Source of the DNA: Bacteroidota bacterium | GTDB taxonomy: Bacteria > Bacteroidota > Bacteroidia > Cytophagales > Cyclobacteriaceae | Length of the DNA: 64,000 nucleotides | NCBI GenBank assembly: GCA_016866235.1 | Contig: VGMW01000004.1 | Coordinates: 124,001-188,000 of the forward strand | Direction of reading: 5' to 3' | In this document: piece after piece, positions 29,061 to 60,730 of the stretch | How positions within the stretch are numbered: the first letter of the stretch is position 1 | Layout of the letters: every line of letters starts with the position of its first letter | Notes under the pieces: model-generated | What the model was told of the DNA's origin: nothing | Database searches by the model: none | What the model saw: only the letters and a program-made list of their open reading frames with translations | Program-made: the position numbers and the translations under genes

Positions 29061-31154
29061 ATTTCAAATCTGTTTCAAACCCCGATCGAATTTCTTAAGG
29101 GTGTCGGCCCTCAAAAGTCGGCCCTGCTTCAGAAAGAATTGGGAATTTTCACGTTTGGCGACCTTTTAGCCCACTATCCATTCCGTTACGAGGATCGAAC
29201 TAAGTTTTATTTTATCCGTGAGGTGGATGAAAATCTTCCCTCTATCCAGGTAAAAGGGCGCCTGGGAAACTTCTCAATGACCGGGACAGGCCCACGCAAA
29301 CGACTCGTTGCCTCTTTTCAGGACGACACAGGAACATTAGAATTGGTTTGGTTTCAGGGGATTCGCTGGGTGACCACGAGATTAAAACCAGGAAGTGACT
29401 ATGTGCTGTTTGGAAAGCCAGCGAGGTTCGGATCCAAATTCAGTGTCGCTCATCCGGAGCTTGAGCCCGTTGGGGAAAATCAGACCAAAGGTGCTTTTCT
29501 TCAACCAGTATATTCCGTTACCGAAAGACTGCGAAATAGTTTCGTCGACAGTAAGTTCATTTCTAAACTCGAGCGGGAAATTCTGCGTCAGGCGACAGGA
29601 AAAATTCCGGAGAACCTCCCTGACAGCATCCTTCAAAAATTTAAACTGATCTCCAAACAAGAGGCGCTTCAACAAATACATTTTCCATCCACTGCAGACC
29701 AGCTGCATCAAGCTCAAAGAAGACTGAAGTTTGAAGAATTGTTTTTTGTTCAGCTTGAATTGCTCAGGCTTAAGGTGGTCAGACAAGATCAGCAGAAAGG
29801 CATGCCATTCACCAACGCATCACTGCTCACAACCTTTTATGAAAAGCATCTTCCTTTTCAATTGACCGAAGCGCAGAAAAAAGTAATCAGGGAAATATAT
29901 GCCGACATGCGGTCTGGCAAACAAATGAACCGGCTGCTTCAAGGCGATGTGGGAAGTGGAAAAACCATCGTCGGATTTATATCGATGCTCATAGCCATTG
30001 GTGGTGGGGCGCAGGCGGCACTAATGGCCCCAACAGAAATTCTAGCCCAGCAACATTACCGCGGACTTAAAGTATTTGCTGATGCAATGCAGGTGCCCAT
30101 TGCCATACTTACCGGATCAACTAAAAAAAGTGAGCGCAAAATCATTCATGATGGGCTCCTCAATGGTTCTTTAAAAATTTTGGCTGGCACGCATGCCTTG
30201 TTGGAGGAGGAGGTTCGATTTAATAAACTTGGTCTGGCAGTCATTGATGAGCAACACCGATTTGGCGTCGCTCAACGATCGAAGCTCTGGAAAAAAAATA
30301 CTGAAGTTTTCCCACATGTTCTGGTAATGACCGCCACGCCCATTCCCCGAACGCTGGCGATGACGCTCTATGGAGACCTTGATGTTTCGGTTATCAGTGA
30401 ATTGCCAAAAGGGAGGAAGCCCATCATCACCCGCCATCAAACCGATACCCATCGGTTGCAGGTTAATGCCTTCATCCGGAAAGAGGTAGGAGCCGGAAGA
30501 CAAGTTTATATTGTCTATCCGCTAATCGATGAGTCGGAAAAATTAGACCTCAAGGACCTGATGGACGGCTATGAAAGCATCACACGTGCTTTTCCAGATC
30601 TCGCGATCAGCATTCTTCATGGAAAAATGGATTCGGAGGCCAAAGATTTTGAAATGGCCCGTTTCAAAAAAGGTGAAACCTCTATTATGGTAGCCACCAC
30701 CGTGATTGAGGTTGGGGTTGATGTTCCCAATGCAACGGTGATGATCATTGAAAACGCCGAGCGCTTTGGTTTATCTCAACTGCACCAGTTGCGCGGTCGC
30801 GTTGGTAGAGGCGGGGAGCAATCCTATTGTATTCTGATGACCAAAGATCGTCTTGGGCAGGATTCGAAAACCAGAATAGCAACCATGGTGCGCACCAACA
30901 ATGGATTTGAGATTGCTGAAACAGATCTCCAACTCAGGGGACCGGGCGATCTCATGGGTACTCAGCAAAGTGGAGCACTTGATTTACGCATTGCGAATTT
31001 GGGAACCGACGGAGAAATTCTTCAGGCCGCCCGCGATGCGGCAAAGGTTTTATTGGAAAGCGACCCTGAGATTTCCGCCGGTGTGCATGCCATGGTGCGG
31101 CACCACCTTAGTGCTCAGGGCAAGAACAAAACCAACTGGAGCCGCATCAGTTGA
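29061..31154 (+). CDS. recG: ATP-dependent DNA helicase RecG (apparent ATT start)
   Basis: The helicase that reverses stalled replication forks and branch-migrates Holliday junctions. The N-terminal wedge (OB) domain covers about residues 60-160, Walker A is GDVGSGKT, the DExH box is VIDEQHRFG, and the C-terminal helicase half holds QLRGRVGRG. The family N-terminus (SNLFQTPIEFLKGVGPQ) is encoded from 29064, but no ATG, GTG or TTG precedes it: an in-frame TAG lies at 29052-29054 and ATT at 29061 stands where homologues have Met. With this start it has 697 residues, the usual length. The first conventional start, TTG at 29139, would remove 26 conserved residues. Confidence 0.9.
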   Translation: MSNLFQTPIEFLKGVGPQKSALLQKELGIFTFGDLLAHYPFRYEDRTKFYFIREVDENLPSIQVKGRLGNFSMTGTGPRKRLVASFQDDTGTLELVWFQGIRWVTTRLKPGSDYVLFGKPARFGSKFSVAHPELEPVGENQTKGAFLQPVYSVTERLRNSFVDSKFISKLEREILRQATGKIPENLPDSILQKFKLISKQEALQQIHFPSTADQLHQAQRRLKFEELFFVQLELLRLKVVRQDQQKGMPFTNASLLTTFYEKHLPFQLTEAQKKVIREIYADMRSGKQMNRLLQGDVGSGKTIVGFISMLIAIGGGAQAALMAPTEILAQQHYRGLKVFADAMQVPIAILTGSTKKSERKIIHDGLLNGSLKILAGTHALLEEEVRFNKLGLAVIDEQHRFGVAQRSKLWKKNTEVFPHVLVMTATPIPRTLAMTLYGDLDVSVISELPKGRKPIITRHQTDTHRLQVNAFIRKEVGAGRQVYIVYPLIDESEKLDLKDLMDGYESITRAFPDLAISILHGKMDSEAKDFEMARFKKGETSIMVATTVIEVGVDVPNATVMIIENAERFGLSQLHQLRGRVGRGGEQSYCILMTKDRLGQDSKTRIATMVRTNNGFEIAETDLQLRGPGDLMGTQQSGALDLRIANLGTDGEILQAARDAAKVLLESDPEISAGVHAMVRHHLSAQGKNKTNWSRIS

Positions 31155-54592: not shown

Positions 54593-55297
54593 TCAGTGGC
54601 AGTCAGGTACGGCAGTAACTGCGTTGGACTGGAAATCCTTTTCTGATTCAAAGACTCTAATGCTTTTGCCGATTAGAAAAACTCCGGCAACCAATAGCAT
54701 AATGGTCGTGACCCGACCAGGGCGCAACCATGGTGATTTGGATCGCAGACCGCTTAAAAAATTTCCTGCAAAACCAACGGTTAACTGCATGGTCAGAAGG
54801 GTGCCCATACCAAAAGACAGCATGTATAATGATCCTTGCCATGCTTGACCGAAGGTCATCGCAGTAACCACTGCAGCGTATGAAAGTCCACATGGAATCA
54901 TCCCGTTTACCATTCCTAGCGCTACAACAGATAAATCAGTCTTCTTTACAATTAACGGCTGAAAAAGGGAGCGCATCCAGCCAGAAGCTTTCAATAGTAA
55001 TGGCTCAAAAGTGGAAATTTTTAATAAACCAGTACCAGACAATGCGGTCGCCAACAAAACAATTCCGGCCAGAAGGGTAATGTATTTTCCAAAACCAAGC
55101 CATTCAAATGCATTGCCCAGGGAAGCCGCAGCAAAACCAAGCACTCCATACATTAACAATCGCCCAAGATTATAAATCAACTTTCGTTTCCATGCCGAAC
55201 GACCTGAGGTTACCGCTAGTATTAATGGACTGCACATGCCAAGACAGTGTAAACTGCCCGCTGCCCCAACCATCAGTCCTGTCAAAATAGGATTCAT
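54593..55297 (-). CDS. TauE/SafE-like (UreH_2) membrane protein of the cbb3 locus
   Basis: A 234-residue protein with six membrane helices. It has two symmetric Cys motifs, GSLHCLGMC near residue 15 and GMIPCG near 136, as in the UreH/CcoS-linked 'sulfite exporter' proteins that usually end cbb3 oxidase operons and may help copper delivery. Its start overlaps the fixH stop by 4 bp (ATGA). Since fixH is broken, its expression may also be reduced. Confidence 0.8.
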   Translation of the reverse strand: MNPILTGLMVGAAGSLHCLGMCSPLILAVTSGRSAWKRKLIYNLGRLLMYGVLGFAAASLGNAFEWLGFGKYITLLAGIVLLATALSGTGLLKISTFEPLLLKASGWMRSLFQPLIVKKTDLSVVALGMVNGMIPCGLSYAAVVTAMTFGQAWQGSLYMLSFGMGTLLTMQLTVGFAGNFLSGLRSKSPWLRPGRVTTIMLLVAGVFLIGKSIRVFESEKDFQSNAVTAVPDCH

Positions 55298-55719
55298 TTT
55301 ACCAGAACGGTTTCAATGAGATAGTTTTCTCCATTCATTTCCCAGGTAAGTGTAGCTCGGTATAGCCCGGTGGACAAATCCTTAGAACTCAAAATGGTTC
55401 TTCCTCCTGAAGGGTTGGCGTCAAAGTTTCGATCCAATTTTCCATCGGAGGGGCGTAGCAAATTCAACCTTGCATTTTCGACATCAACAACGCCTCTCCA
55501 TAAAACTTCAATATCATTATTTTGAATAAAAATAAGTGGCGAGGTCTTTAGATGCTTTGCCTTACTCATCGCTGTCATTTTTTCACCATGGTTCAACTAG
55601 CGGTAATAGTAGTCCGGGTACACCAAATTAATTTCCTGCTTCATACAAACTGTTACCAATACGGCGATGAGCGTGCCGAACACAACAAAAGAAAACACAA
55701 TTCCTTTTTGAAAACTCAT
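55294..55719 (-). pseudogene. fixH: fixH/ccoH interrupted by an in-frame amber stop
   Basis: FixH (CcoH) is the single-helix assembly factor of cbb3 oxidase. The ATG at 55719 overlaps the ccoG stop (ATGA) and begins a helix (GIVFSFVVFGTLIAVLVTV) followed by a family-like DYYYR. Codon 41 (55599-55597) is TAG where homologues typically have Glu, one base from GAG. After it the same frame continues without a break for 100 codons (LNHGEKMTAMSKAKHL to TVLVK), ending in the FixH-like domain with LRPSDGKLDRNF and STGLYRATLTWEMNG. Joined, 142 codons give the usual length. Translation from the TTG just after the stop would produce a protein without its anchor. Confidence 0.85.
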
Positions 55720-57149
55720 GATGCTTCGCGTTTTATTTTTATTGGACCTATAAACCTCGCTTCAACTGTTTCTATCCTCTTCTCTCCAGAAAAAATTCCT
55801 AATCTGATTTTCATTTTGACCGATGAGAGTTTCTCCGGCGGGATTTTTACGATAATCATTCGCTTTAAAAGCCCTTCCCCCTTTACTAGTATATCCTGAT
55901 CACCCACCAACCGTATTTCAGTATCTTCAGGGGACTCAGACTTAATTTTTAATGCTATGTCGTGGAATGTTTTGTTGACAAATTCAATGTTGTATACATT
56001 GGTGATCTGACCGTCGTCGGAAGTGGTGTACAATGTTCCCGGCGCCTTCAGGATGGTGGTTTCAATGTCGGAGCGTGTGAAAATAAAATACCCAGAAACA
56101 GAAAGTAAGGCGAAGAGCACACCGGCATAGGCGATGGTTCGGAAATTTAATACCCGGTTTACGCCTTGCTTAATGCTGTTGTGCGAGGCATAGCGGATGA
56201 GGCCGGTGGACTTACCTATTTTTTGCATGACATCATCACAGGAATCCATGCAAGCAGTGCAATTCACACATTCCAGTTGCGTTCCGTTGCGAATGTCTAT
56301 TCCGGTTGGACAAACGTGTACGCAAAGCTTACAATCAATACAATCACCCTTGGCTTCCTGCACCACGAAGCTCTTCTTAAGTTTGGTCCGTGGCTCTCCA
56401 CGCAGCCAATCGTAAGCCACCACGATTGAATCTTTTGTGAGCAGCACCCCTTGTAACCTGCCGTAAGGGCAAACTGCAATGCAGGCTTGCTCCCTAAACC
56501 AGGCAAAGACACCGTAGAAAACAGCGGTGAACCCTAACAACCCTAGAAAACCCGTTGGATGTTCCGCCGGTGACTGCCGAACTATTTCAGCTACCCGACC
56601 AATGCCAATTAAATAGGCCATGGCAACGTGTGCGATGAGGATGGAAATGCTCAAAAAAATAATTTGCTTGGCTCCCTTTCGAAGAATTTTTTCAAATGTC
56701 CATGGGGCCGCATTTAGTCGGCGCTGTTGTGGCGCGTCGCCTTCCAGCAAATACTCAATCTTCCGAAAAACCATCTCCATGAAAAGGGTCTGAGGGCATG
56801 CCCAGCCACACCAAAGACGACCGAAAGAGACGGTAAATAAGATCACAAAAACAAAAAATGTAATCAGCGTAAGGGCAAGCAGAAAAAAATCCTGGGGCCA
56901 AAAAACCTGGCCAAACAAAATAAAGCGACGCTCAAAAATATTGAACAATAAAAAGGGCTGATCATCAATCCTAATAAATGGGCCTATGAAAAAAAGTGAC
57001 AAAAGCACTATGGCAACCACGATGCGGAGCCGGTGATACCATCCCGACGGTTTCTTAGGATAAACCCAAACCCTTTTGCCTTCCTCGTCTACCGTTGCAA
57101 TGGTATTCCGGTACTCCTCATCGAATGCGTAAAAATTTTCGTTCGCCAT
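55716..57149 (-). CDS. ccoG: cbb3 oxidase assembly iron-sulfur protein CcoG
   Basis: A 477-residue membrane protein with four or five helices; the CcoG/RdxA-like polyferredoxin helps cbb3 oxidase maturation by reducing copper. It has CGWACPQTLF near residue 105, CPYGRLQG near 227 and the two [4Fe-4S] motifs CIDCKLCVHVCP and CVNCTACMDSC near 270-300. A C-terminal immunoglobulin-like FixG domain follows. The start is the ATG at 57149 (GTG at 57152 is less likely). The stop overlaps the fixH ATG. Confidence 0.93.
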   Translation of the reverse strand: MANENFYAFDEEYRNTIATVDEEGKRVWVYPKKPSGWYHRLRIVVAIVLLSLFFIGPFIRIDDQPFLLFNIFERRFILFGQVFWPQDFFLLALTLITFFVFVILFTVSFGRLWCGWACPQTLFMEMVFRKIEYLLEGDAPQQRRLNAAPWTFEKILRKGAKQIIFLSISILIAHVAMAYLIGIGRVAEIVRQSPAEHPTGFLGLLGFTAVFYGVFAWFREQACIAVCPYGRLQGVLLTKDSIVVAYDWLRGEPRTKLKKSFVVQEAKGDCIDCKLCVHVCPTGIDIRNGTQLECVNCTACMDSCDDVMQKIGKSTGLIRYASHNSIKQGVNRVLNFRTIAYAGVLFALLSVSGYFIFTRSDIETTILKAPGTLYTTSDDGQITNVYNIEFVNKTFHDIALKIKSESPEDTEIRLVGDQDILVKGEGLLKRMIIVKIPPEKLSSVKMKIRLGIFSGEKRIETVEARFIGPIKIKREAS

Positions 57150-57189
57150 CACCTTCTCCCCGGATTGTCTGATTAAACCATCCTATGGA

Positions 57190-58080
57190 TCAGGGCACGA
57201 CAGTCTTAACCGCTCCACTGTCTTGTGCAGCTTGTGGTTTAAACAATTCACCCTCGGGCTTTTTAGCATTTGGTGGATTGGTACCACGCAGTGAAAACAG
57301 GTAGCTTGAAACATTCCTGATTTTTTCAGGACTTAAGGAAGTTCCCCAGGCAATCATATTGGTACCGGTTACACCTTTTGAAACCACCGCATAAACAGAA
57401 CGAATATCTCCGCCATGCTTCCAATAGTCGTCGGTTAGGTTAGGGCCAATGTCGCCACCTCCATCCATCCTATGACAAGAAGAGCAAATACTGGTGTAAG
57501 TACTTTTTCCGTCAGCGAGCGCGACAGGATCACTGGTTTGTTCAACATTGGTTTCATCTATTACCGGACCGGTAATAGAAGCCTTCAATAATTTTTGTTG
57601 TGCGTCGGCCAGAGAAACTTCCTGCTCATACTCCGCCGTCTGCAGCGGTAACGTGTCGGTGAGGTGATAAGCCGCCAGATAAACTCCGCCCCAGATTATG
57701 GTTGCATAAAAAAGCCACTTCCACCATGGTGGTAGGAAATTATCCAGTTCCCGAATTCCATCATAGTTATGGTCGAGCATTACGGTCTCTTCCTTCTCGA
57801 GAGGAACAGAGCGGTTGCTCCATTCCATCAGCTTCGACCATAGACTGGGCTCTTCCTTCCATTCAACACCTTTTTGACGAGCAGCCTCGATGGAAGCCTC
57901 TTTGGTGAGTTGACGGAGAACCTGAAGCAGAAAACTGGCAACTACCAGAATTAGGACTGCTGATATGAAAATGAAACCAACAACCGTATAAAAAAGTACC
58001 ATCGGATCATCCCAAATGGAAGTAGAGGGAATTTGAAGGTTGATGGAGATGGTGTTCAAAATGAAAACGAGCTGATTCAT
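57190..58080 (-). CDS. ccoP: cbb3 oxidase subunit CcoP (monoheme)
   Basis: A 296-residue c-type cytochrome subunit of the cbb3 oxidase. It has an N-terminal helix (LFYTVVGFIFISAVLILVV), the CcoP-typical LDHNYDGIRELDNFLPPWW (about 102-120), a second helix, and one heme c site C199SSCH203 with MIAW as a possible Met ligand. Classical CcoP has two heme sites; only one is present here. Its ATG overlaps the ccoQ stop by 4 bp. Confidence 0.92.
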   Translation of the reverse strand: MNQLVFILNTISINLQIPSTSIWDDPMVLFYTVVGFIFISAVLILVVASFLLQVLRQLTKEASIEAARQKGVEWKEEPSLWSKLMEWSNRSVPLEKEETVMLDHNYDGIRELDNFLPPWWKWLFYATIIWGGVYLAAYHLTDTLPLQTAEYEQEVSLADAQQKLLKASITGPVIDETNVEQTSDPVALADGKSTYTSICSSCHRMDGGGDIGPNLTDDYWKHGGDIRSVYAVVSKGVTGTNMIAWGTSLSPEKIRNVSSYLFSLRGTNPPNAKKPEGELFKPQAAQDSGAVKTVVP

Positions 58081-58268
58081 GACGGATTGGATTTTTGTTC
58101 AAGGGACTGGTCATCCAGCGGCAGGCCACTCATCTCAGAGATATATTTCCGGTCGGCAGTAAATGCCCACCATAGCAAGACGACAAAAAATGAAAAGAAA
58201 ATGACAAAGGAAATGACAGGCCAAATGGCAACGTTTTGAATTCCCTGTAAGACTTCTTTGTAGATCAT
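58077..58268 (-). CDS. ccoQ: cbb3 oxidase subunit CcoQ
   Basis: A 63-residue single-helix protein (AIWPVISFVIFFSFFVVLLW) ending in a short cytosolic tail. Size and position between ccoO and ccoP, with ATGA overlap to ccoP, identify it as CcoQ, which stabilises the oxidase. Confidence 0.85.
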   Translation of the reverse strand: MIYKEVLQGIQNVAIWPVISFVIFFSFFVVLLWWAFTADRKYISEMSGLPLDDQSLEQKSNPS

Positions 58269-58279
58269 TGCTCAGTGAT

Positions 58280-59164
58280 TTACTGTTCCTTCAACTTTAT
58301 ATCCTGACCCAAACGTTGCAGGTAAGCGATCAGGGCAACAATCTCTGCATCTGCTACCGTTTCGTACTGTTCTGCTTTTAGTCTGTTGACAATACCATTG
58401 GCTTGTTGCTCGTAATCTATCAGCGCCTGTTTTTCATAGTCATCAGGATAGGGAACGCCGATTTTTCTGAGTGCAGCTATTTTAGAAGGTAGTGTGGACT
58501 TGTCCACTGTAGCTTCATACAACCAGGGATAGGCTGGCATGATTGATCCATTGGAAACTTCCGCTGGTGTGAGCATGTGGCGGAAATGCCAACTGTCGGC
58601 ATACTTTCCTCCCACACGGTGAAGGTCAGGCCCCGTTCTTTTGGATCCCCACAAAAACGGATGGTCATAAATATACTCGCCAGCTTTAGAGTACTCTCCT
58701 CCGGAGGGATCGTAACGCTGAACCTCGGAGCGGAACGGGCGCACCATTTGGGAATGGCAACCCACACAGCCTTCACGAATGTAAATATCCCTGCCCTCCA
58801 GCTCCAGTGGAGTGTATGGCTTGACACTTGCAATGGTTGGCACATTCGATCGAATCAGAAATGTTGGAACCATTTCAATCACACCACCGATCAGGATAGC
58901 CACCAGTGCGAGCGCTGTGAACAGCACCGGCTTGCTCTCCAGGGTATGATGCCAGCCACCAGATGATGCTGATTTAATCATCGGCGCAACCTCTACCGCT
59001 TCATCACTTTCAAAACTTCCCTGCTTTGCTGTTTTCAAGAGGTTATAAATCATTACAAAAACACCGATCAGATAGAATGAGCCACCAACGGCCCGAAGCA
59101 CATGCATCGGCAGGATTTGAGCAGTGGTTTCAAGAAAATTCTGATAGCGAAGGAAGCCATCGAC
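58280..59164 (-). pseudogene. ccoNO fusion gene, truncated: CcoN tail plus CcoO
   Basis: Reading leftward from about 59,164: the last ~60 residues of CcoN (DGFLRYQNFLE, LPMHVLRAVGGSFYLIG and a helix ending VMIYNLLKTA), a ~20-residue linker, then CcoO with its N-terminal helix, the heme c site CVGCHSQMVRPF and the Met-ligand region IMPAYPWL. The CcoN catalytic subunit normally has twelve helices and six His ligands for heme b, heme b3 and CuB; all are missing. Right of ~59,165 the reading frame continues for 35 codons of unrelated sequence that on the plus strand encodes the end of a histidine kinase. No functional oxidase can be made from this gene. Confidence 0.88.
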
Positions 59165-59272
59165 CGTATGTACATCGTGAGCCGTTACGTAGAGCTGGCA
59201 CATGGCAGCATCGATTTTGTAAGTAAGGCAGGCGAAGGAACAGAATTCACCATTTCTCTTCCCTGCCACTAA
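59165..59272 (+). pseudogene. histidine kinase C-terminal fragment, 5' truncated
   Basis: Plus-strand codons from 59,168 to the TAA at 59,270-59,272 read MYIVSRYVELAHGSIDF then SKAGEGTEFTISLP. This is the end of the ATPase domain of a sensor kinase (GLYIVxxYVELHGGxI ... GEGTxFTIxLP). The dimerisation domain, H-box, N-box and G1 box are absent: to the left the frame runs into the minus-strand ccoNO sequence. A response regulator starts 38 bp downstream, so this was its cognate kinase. The lost parts of both genes lay between here and ccoNO. Confidence 0.85.
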
Positions 59273-59309
59273 AGCAGCAAAACATACTTCAGATTAAACA
59301 AATACATTC

Positions 59310-60368
59310 ATGAGTAAACTTCTTCTAATCGAGGACAACGCGGAGGTCAGAGAAAATACCGCTGAAATTCTTCAGTTGGCCCGCTACGATGTGCTTACCG
59401 CTGAAAATGGAAAGGTCGGCGTCGAGCTTGCCCTTCAGGAAAAACCTGATCTGATTATTTGTGACATTATGATGCCTCTGTTAGACGGTTATGGGGTTTT
59501 ACACATGTTGAGTAAGAATCCCGAAACCTCCTTTATTCCATTTATTTTTCTGACGGCCAAATCGGAAAATTCAGACTATCGGAAAGGAATGGAATTGGGC
59601 GCCGACGATTACATCACCAAGCCCTTCGAGGAAACGGCATTATTGAATGCCATTGAGGTGCGGCTCAAAAAAGCTGATAAACTCAGAAAAAATTTCACCC
59701 AGGATCTTTCTGGTGTAAATGAGTTTTTTGACTCGGCCGCTCAGCACATCAATTTAAAATTGACAGAGAAAGCAAGAGAAGTTCAGAAGTACAGGAAAAA
59801 ATCAGTTCTCTTTCAGGAAGGTCACCGGCCGCTTTTTCTATACTTCCTGGTGAGCGGAAAAGTGAAGGCCTATCGTTCCAATGAGGATGGAAAAGAATTG
59901 ATTACCCACATCCACATCCCTGGTGATTTTATCGGCTACACTCCAATACTGGAAGAAACCTCTTACAAAGACAGTGCAGATATTTTAGAAGATGCGGAAG
60001 TAATGCTGATTCCGCGTGAAGAATTTTTGAGACTACTAAGCTCAGACAATCTGGTGGCCCGTCAGTTCATTCGGATGTTAACCAAAAATGTGGTAGTCCA
60101 TGAAGACAAACTCATCAATCTTGCATACAATTCCGTTCGTAAAAGAGTAGCCAATGGATTATTGGAGGTGCTGCAAAAGTTTAAGTCCAATGGAGTCGAT
60201 AATCCCCCTCTTACCATTTCCAGAGAAGACCTCGCTCAGGTAGTAGGAACTGCAACTGAGTCACTCATTCGGACGCTAAGTGAATTCAAAACAGACAAAC
60301 TAATTGACATCAACGGTGGCAAAATCACCGTATTGCAAGAGAGTAAACTTAAAAATCTGATTTACTGA
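59310..60368 (+). CDS. response regulator with Crp/Fnr-type DNA-binding domain
   Basis: A 352-residue regulator. The receiver domain (1-120) has phospho-acceptor Asp52 in CDIMMP and Lys104 in TKPF. A cNMP-binding-like barrel (about 150-265) and an HTH_Crp domain (about 275-340; TISREDLAQVVGTATESLIRTLSEF) follow. The recognition helix keeps Glu and Arg at the FNR positions, but has Ile where FNR has Ser. No Cys cluster is present, so it senses through its kinase rather than by an Fe-S cluster. It likely controls the adjacent cbb3 genes; its kinase is lost here. Confidence 0.9.
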   Translation: MSKLLLIEDNAEVRENTAEILQLARYDVLTAENGKVGVELALQEKPDLIICDIMMPLLDGYGVLHMLSKNPETSFIPFIFLTAKSENSDYRKGMELGADDYITKPFEETALLNAIEVRLKKADKLRKNFTQDLSGVNEFFDSAAQHINLKLTEKAREVQKYRKKSVLFQEGHRPLFLYFLVSGKVKAYRSNEDGKELITHIHIPGDFIGYTPILEETSYKDSADILEDAEVMLIPREEFLRLLSSDNLVARQFIRMLTKNVVVHEDKLINLAYNSVRKRVANGLLEVLQKFKSNGVDNPPLTISREDLAQVVGTATESLIRTLSEFKTDKLIDINGGKITVLQESKLKNLIY

Positions 60369-60730
60369 GTTTGCTCAATTAGCTTGCCCTCTGCATTCTG
60401 GCGCTCCAACGACCAGTCATCTGTAAGAGAGGTTTCGATCCAAACATTTCCAGATTTACGAAATACCCGCGCGATTAATCCTGTGGCCCGCTGAAAATCA
60501 GCTTTAATTTGTTCCACGGTACGAAAGTGACTAAGATCTATTGATGGCATAGCTGCCTTGGGCAACAGGGAGTGGTTTTCTATTTTTTTTGTGATACGAA
60601 TTCCGTTGAGTTCGAGCGTTTTGTAAAACTCGATTTTCAAGAAATTATAAGTCCCGCTGAAAAATTGCTGGATCTCCGCTACCGTCAGCTTTTCAGAAAT
60701 CGAAAGGTTTATCGGTTGAAGTGTTGACAC
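60362..60730 (-). CDS. conserved hypothetical protein (122 aa)
   Basis: A 122-residue cytosolic protein of unknown family, mixed alpha/beta with no recognised motif. Its start is a GTG at 60730: an upstream in-frame stop (TAA near 60,751) leaves no ATG. The 3' end overlaps the response regulator gene by 7 bp. An FNR-like site lies about 70 nt upstream, so it may be under oxygen-linked control. Confidence 0.5.
   Translation of the reverse strand: MSTLQPINLSISEKLTVAEIQQFFSGTYNFLKIEFYKTLELNGIRITKKIENHSLLPKAAMPSIDLSHFRTVEQIKADFQRATGLIARVFRKSGNVWIETSLTDDWSLERQNAEGKLIEQTQ

Follow-up and report, generated by a model that had tools for sequence, protein, structure and literature searches.

The window, a stretch of 64,000 nucleotides from a Bacteroidota bacterium of the family Cyclobacteriaceae, corresponds to positions 124001–188000 of contig C4 (221,650 bases), and mechanically listed reading frames of at least 60 amino acids span 96% of it. 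Towards its right end, the remainder of a cbb3 oxidase (cco) operon on the minus strand meets, head to head, the remainder of a histidine kinase gene on the plus strand, which is followed by an intact response regulator gene. The features of this locus, in window positions, are the following.

54593–55297, minus strand: DsbD_2/SafE-type membrane protein (PF13386, 126 bits), found in the same place in the cco operons of relatives
55294–55719, minus strand: ccoH/fixH, interrupted by an in-frame TAG (tblastn to the FixH of relatives)
55716–57152, minus strand: ccoG/fixG, open frame (TIGR02745, 420.8 bits, over the cut-off)
57190–58080, minus strand: ccoP, open frame (FixP_N and Cytochrome_CBB3 over the cut-off)
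58077–58268, minus strand: CcoQ-like frame of 63 amino acids, assigned from its position and by eye, resembling part of the small ORF beside ccoNO in locus L199
58280–59167, minus strand: remnant of a fused ccoNO, with the last 55–60 CcoN residues, the complete CcoO and the stop codon (PRK14485, FixO, P0121)
59167–59168, no strand: junction at which CcoN homology (minus strand) abuts histidine kinase homology (plus strand), from the alignments to P0121 and P0234
59168–59272, plus strand: histidine kinase remnant, the last 34 residues and the stop codon, 85% identical to residues 418–451 of P0234
59310–60368, plus strand: response regulator, intact (Response_reg, cNMP_binding and HTH_Crp_2 over the cut-off)
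60362–60730, minus strand: protein of 122 amino acids, convergent with the regulator and used as a synteny marker, with no Pfam or NCBIfam match

The junction can be placed to within a few bases. On the minus side, residue 412 of P0121, the nearest intact CcoNO found (83% identical to the window over residues 411–703), starts at 59167, and the CcoN/CcoO homology runs leftward from about 59167–59170; on the plus side, residue 418 of P0234 starts at 59168, and the kinase homology continues to the stop codon at 59270–59272. The two homologies meet without filler, and the search alignments overlap by 0–3 bases. The initial annotation had read the end of CcoN followed by CcoO on the minus strand left of about 59,165 and the end of a sensor kinase, with its stop, on the plus strand to the right, and both assignments are borne out by these alignments. 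Its sharp change of coding strand is also there, with the figure of about 10 bases being too loose, and the order of a truncated ccoN and CcoO is as described, except that ccoN and ccoO are fused into a single gene. A palindrome of 8 bases occupies 59168–59175, at the join. A repeat-mediated misjoin is rejected because the genome contains no further copy of the 601 bases that surround the junction, the only match being one of 37 bases at 84%.

The ccoNO remnant, a reading frame of 337 amino acids in the survey of same-genus CcoNO proteins, covers positions 413–707 of 716 in PRK14485 and positions 415–471 of 474 in the ccoN model. The CcoO portion is complete over its Pfam model (FixO, 1–219 of 219) and includes the CxxCH heme site (CVGCH in the translation). 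About 410 N-terminal residues of CcoN are missing and, with them, the conserved histidine motifs, which are contained within residues 56–348 of P0121 in the alignment to 9g6b_A; the window starts at residue 411–412. In cbb3 structures, these motifs supply the ligands that bind the hemes and CuB. Because the six metal-holding histidines of CcoN are gone, no cbb3 oxidase could presumably be made, and the remnant is predicted from its sequence to have lost this function. Across the junction, only the equivalent of residues 418–451 of P0234 is left of the kinase, and both the phospho-accepting histidine and the ATPase domain are gone. The protein search with the kinase remnant matched this single protein, at 85%, and no same-species full-length kinase. 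The regulator retains its receiver, cNMP-binding and Crp-type HTH domains, and stands without its neighbour kinase.

The genes to the left of the remnant are mostly open. CcoO, CcoP and CcoG carry no frameshift. CcoP scores under the cut-off of its TIGRFAM model (110.9 against 179.95 bits for TIGR00782). In ccoH, a TAG codon at 55597–55599 interrupts the frame after 40 codons and the downstream part of 100 codons is open; its score against the Pfam FixH model is 19.6 bits, under the cut-off of 23. Unless it is a sequencing error, this stop codon is a second lesion in the operon. Ranked by mean distance to the outgroups, CcoP is 19th of 22 and CcoG 11th of 21, both inside the range of the genus, the regulator is 11th of 18, and the CcoNO remnant, among 24 in-genus rows, has the greatest distance by a very narrow margin. 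A fast decay of the leftover genes is thus rejected: CcoG and CcoP lie within the genus range and the CcoNO remnant is only marginally the highest. Open CcoO, CcoP and CcoG frames that are not clearly faster evolving, together with the stop in ccoH, fit a recent loss, and the distances of the leftover genes and of the regulator are compatible either with an event of recent date or with a different use of what is left. Such a use, with the CcoN tail and CcoO, CcoP and CcoG working elsewhere as membrane c-type cytochromes and the regulator driven by another kinase, would agree with the open frames, with the unexceptional distances of CcoP and CcoG and with the CcoO that is complete over the Pfam model. 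The interrupted ccoH and the loss of the conserved histidine motifs from the CcoN remnant count against it, and we regard it as very improbable.

The genome that contains the window amounts to 2.77 Mb in 12 contigs and is 95% complete and unclosed. It is the smallest among the listed same-genus genomes that are at least 90% complete, the others having at least 3.3 Mb (rounded). Elsewhere in the window, a recG-like frame (29139–31154, plus strand; named by eye) seemed truncated at its beginning but extends upstream in frame without an ATG, GTG or TTG, so that a rarer start codon is likely; given that the frame extends upstream of the first of these codons, it was not counted as a second broken gene.

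The DNA missing from the locus was sought in the rest of this genome. For ccoN, the PF00115 search gives one match, a CtaD-like gene on contig C3, and the full-length P0121 query matched the window, over residues 411–703 only, and gave in addition just a weak match to the same CtaD-like gene. A full ccoN elsewhere in the genome is therefore rejected, the sole PF00115 match being this gene, which stands beside a CtaC-like gene (names from translations) and represents one other heme-copper oxidase that the genome has retained. A bd oxidase was not found in this genome in a search whose control was positive in 10 of 14. For the 5′ part of the kinase, two full-length kinase queries retrieve from this genome nothing closer than distant kinases, at 35% and 33% for the best, apart from the remnant itself in the case of P0234. 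An orthologous ccoI was not found in the genome either: the CcoI query gives only two weak pieces of one frame of 841 amino acids, and matches in-genus CcoI proteins at 41–46%. There is no PF03597 (ccoS) match in the genome, with a model of just 44 positions whose control matched 2 of 14 genomes and was over the cut-off in 1. The missing segment is thus absent from the rest of the genome as far as these searches reach, with 95% of an unclosed genome covered. The initial annotation had pointed to the rest of the assembly as the place to look for the N-terminal part of CcoN, for CcoI and for the kinase parts, and none of these turned up beyond the window. It had also called ccoI and ccoS absent, which holds for ccoI by the genome query and, for ccoS, comes down to the lack of a PF03597 match; its view of ccoI beside ccoNO as the usual layout does not hold for this genus. 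Among 14 in-genus loci, ccoI adjoins ccoNO in 2, with at least 4 of the other 12 cut by contig ends; in a separate set of loci, the two genes adjoin in L199 and L205 but not in L206. Since adjacency of ccoI and ccoNO is not general in the genus, the absence of ccoI from this locus tells us little by itself.

The same-genus set consists of 62 genomes, that of the window included. A CcoNO frame of at least 700 amino acids is present in 46 of these, a shorter or different match in 11, and no match in 5. The 11 are the window genome; G004, G006, G020 and G021 (contig end); G057, with ccoNO as two frames that overlap on a single contig; G044, with ccoNO split over two contigs; G005, where the match is a different protein of 348 amino acids; and G043, G048 and G072. 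The genomes with no CcoNO match include G013, G064 (locus L201) and G069, which are 92–100% complete, so that loss of the cbb3 oxidase may recur in the genus. The kinase–regulator pair of G064 is very similar to that of G061, a genome that has ccoNO.

The regulator gives a second view of the ancestral arrangement. A match at E ≤ 1e-75 exists in 34 of the 62 same-genus genomes, some of these matches being paralogues near 50% identity; the best in-genus orthologues, at 72%, belong to G061, G064, G024 and G010. A second regulator with receiver, cNMP-binding and Crp-type domains, 44% identical to that of the window, is encoded in the same genome (G000:C8:46871–47902; L046, 2871–3905). The convergent 122-amino-acid neighbour follows the regulator within less than 100 bases in L032–L034, L117, L118, L120, L121, L168, L171 and L200–L204, a count in which L117 and L201, and likewise L118 and L204, look like the same contigs from their lengths; the neighbour and the regulator are possibly linked in function. 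In 80 loci around regulator relatives, taken from public genomes, ccoNO is located upstream in divergent orientation in 11 (L120 among them), and only ccoI occupies that place in 2. It is located downstream and convergent in 8, downstream in the same direction in 3 and upstream in the same direction in 1; in the remaining 55, many of them cut by contig ends, neither ccoNO nor ccoI passes the thresholds applied, L186, with ccoG at the contig end, being one of these. Outside the 80, the divergent order is found in G033 (L035) and in the same-genus genome G059 (L199). In G059, a usp gene (by eye), ccoI, ccoNO and ccoP run leftward in this order, and the kinase and the regulator run rightward. In L120, the divergent order comes together with the same small neighbour gene, which converges on the regulator from its downstream side. 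The distance between the points equivalent to the two sides of the breakpoint is 5,252–9,794 bases (5,499 in L120 and 6,590 in L199) in those 11 of 13 divergent loci that allowed both points to be placed. The unbroken divergent order in G059/L199 and L120 upholds the proposal of the initial annotation that the removed segment comprised the greater part of both ccoN and the kinase, together with the DNA between them.

That the two units were adjacent in the direct line of this genome has to be inferred from these loci. No cco gene was found near the regulator orthologues of G061, G064, G024 and G010 within 4.2–18 kb upstream and 0.9–6.3 kb downstream, some of these stretches being limited by contig ends; ccoNO is on another contig in G024, G010 and G061 and is unmatched in G064. 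The regulator of the window groups with these same four (96% SH-aLRT) in what, as with the other trees here, is a quick tree with weak deep support. Taken together, these two observations would suit a larger rearrangement, in which the direct ancestor had the kinase–regulator pair and the cco genes without linkage, and an inversion or large deletion brought them together, the other products being lost later. We nevertheless consider it quite unlikely, given that the divergent linkage of these units exists within the genus (G059) and in L120, which also shares the downstream neighbour, and that the quick tree of the CcoNO remnant puts the window, weakly, with G059 and G007. A deletion within a divergent locus remains the preferred reading.

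The initial annotation had left the choice between a genomic deletion and an assembly joining error undecided. In the latter case, two genuine places would have been joined by a chimeric read or an incorrect path through the graph, in the assembly or already in the library, and the intervening stretch would be missing from the assembly. The genome is indeed unclosed and in 12 contigs, the missing genes are those expected in the lost stretch, and most of the cco genes that are left have open frames, all of which is compatible with such an artefact. The same junction is found, however, in a second protein. Among the matches listed in the protein search with the frame that spans the junction (best 120 of 8000), P0001, of 307 amino acids, begins on the strand antisense to the kinase remnant, reads through the junction and is identical to the window at 306 of 307 positions. 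The sole difference, Ile to Gly, needs at least two base changes. P0001 is listed with two member sequences and one contig, the longest being 3,723 bp, and thus on a contig different from that of the window; we read it as a second assembly holding the same junction, which may, however, derive from the sample or library of the first. In a search confined to proteins of about 383–1218 amino acids, no intact same-species ccoNO is present among the best 120 of 8000 matches, none of which exceeds 83% identity to the CcoNO remnant. Nor is there a same-species full-length kinase among the matches listed, and the join occurs without a repeat. Because P0001 spans the same junction and ccoH carries its own, separate in-frame stop, a real loss is favoured over an assembly error. 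The evidence leans to a deletion, and the artefact, which we judge unlikely, keeps a share.

The locus is thus probably the product of a short, real chromosomal deletion that inactivated the cbb3 operon and orphaned the regulator. The ancestor would most likely have carried a divergent pair, with ccoNO and its downstream genes running leftward and the kinase and regulator running rightward, and ccoI, whose position we infer, and perhaps ccoS would have lain between ccoNO and the kinase. A blunt deletion of about 5–7 kb, a length suggested by L120 and L199, would then, as a single event, have taken the first ~410 residues of CcoN, the intervening DNA and all of the kinase except its last 34 codons. 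After such a deletion, no cbb3 oxidase would be possible and the regulator would be without its kinase. We see only a slim chance that the deletion has become fixed in the species with the CcoN tail, CcoO, CcoP and CcoG kept as an oxidase-free membrane cytochrome module and the regulator rewired to another kinase.

Compared with cbb3 operons with a fused ccoNO (NF011053/PRK14485; solved oxidases 3mk7 and 9g6b), the window encodes the CcoN tail and CcoO within a single frame, and the order of the CcoO, CcoP, CcoG, CcoH and SafE-like genes is as in relatives; it differs in the ~410 CcoN residues that are missing, in the ccoI orthologue and ccoS that were not found and in the interruption of ccoH. 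Compared with the Bacteroidota kinase and receiver–cNMP–Crp regulator pairs beside cco (L035, L120, L199), the regulator is complete, has the same domains, follows a kinase tail and diverges from ccoNO, but the kinase is cut to its last 34 residues. Pseudogenes that arise by deletion between neighbouring genes consist of two truncated genes joined together. The window likewise contains two joined truncated genes, the missing pieces of which were not found, with the difference that no fusion protein is formed because these genes are head to head. No literature on this locus was found in the titles and abstract openings covered.

In kind, this is ordinary gene loss and not a new kind of system. 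The search with the junction protein illustrates that other assemblies can provide an argument against an assembly error without recourse to reads. If the deletion is real, as is probable, the locus would offer a clean example of one deletion that takes a high-affinity oxidase and the input of its regulator together.
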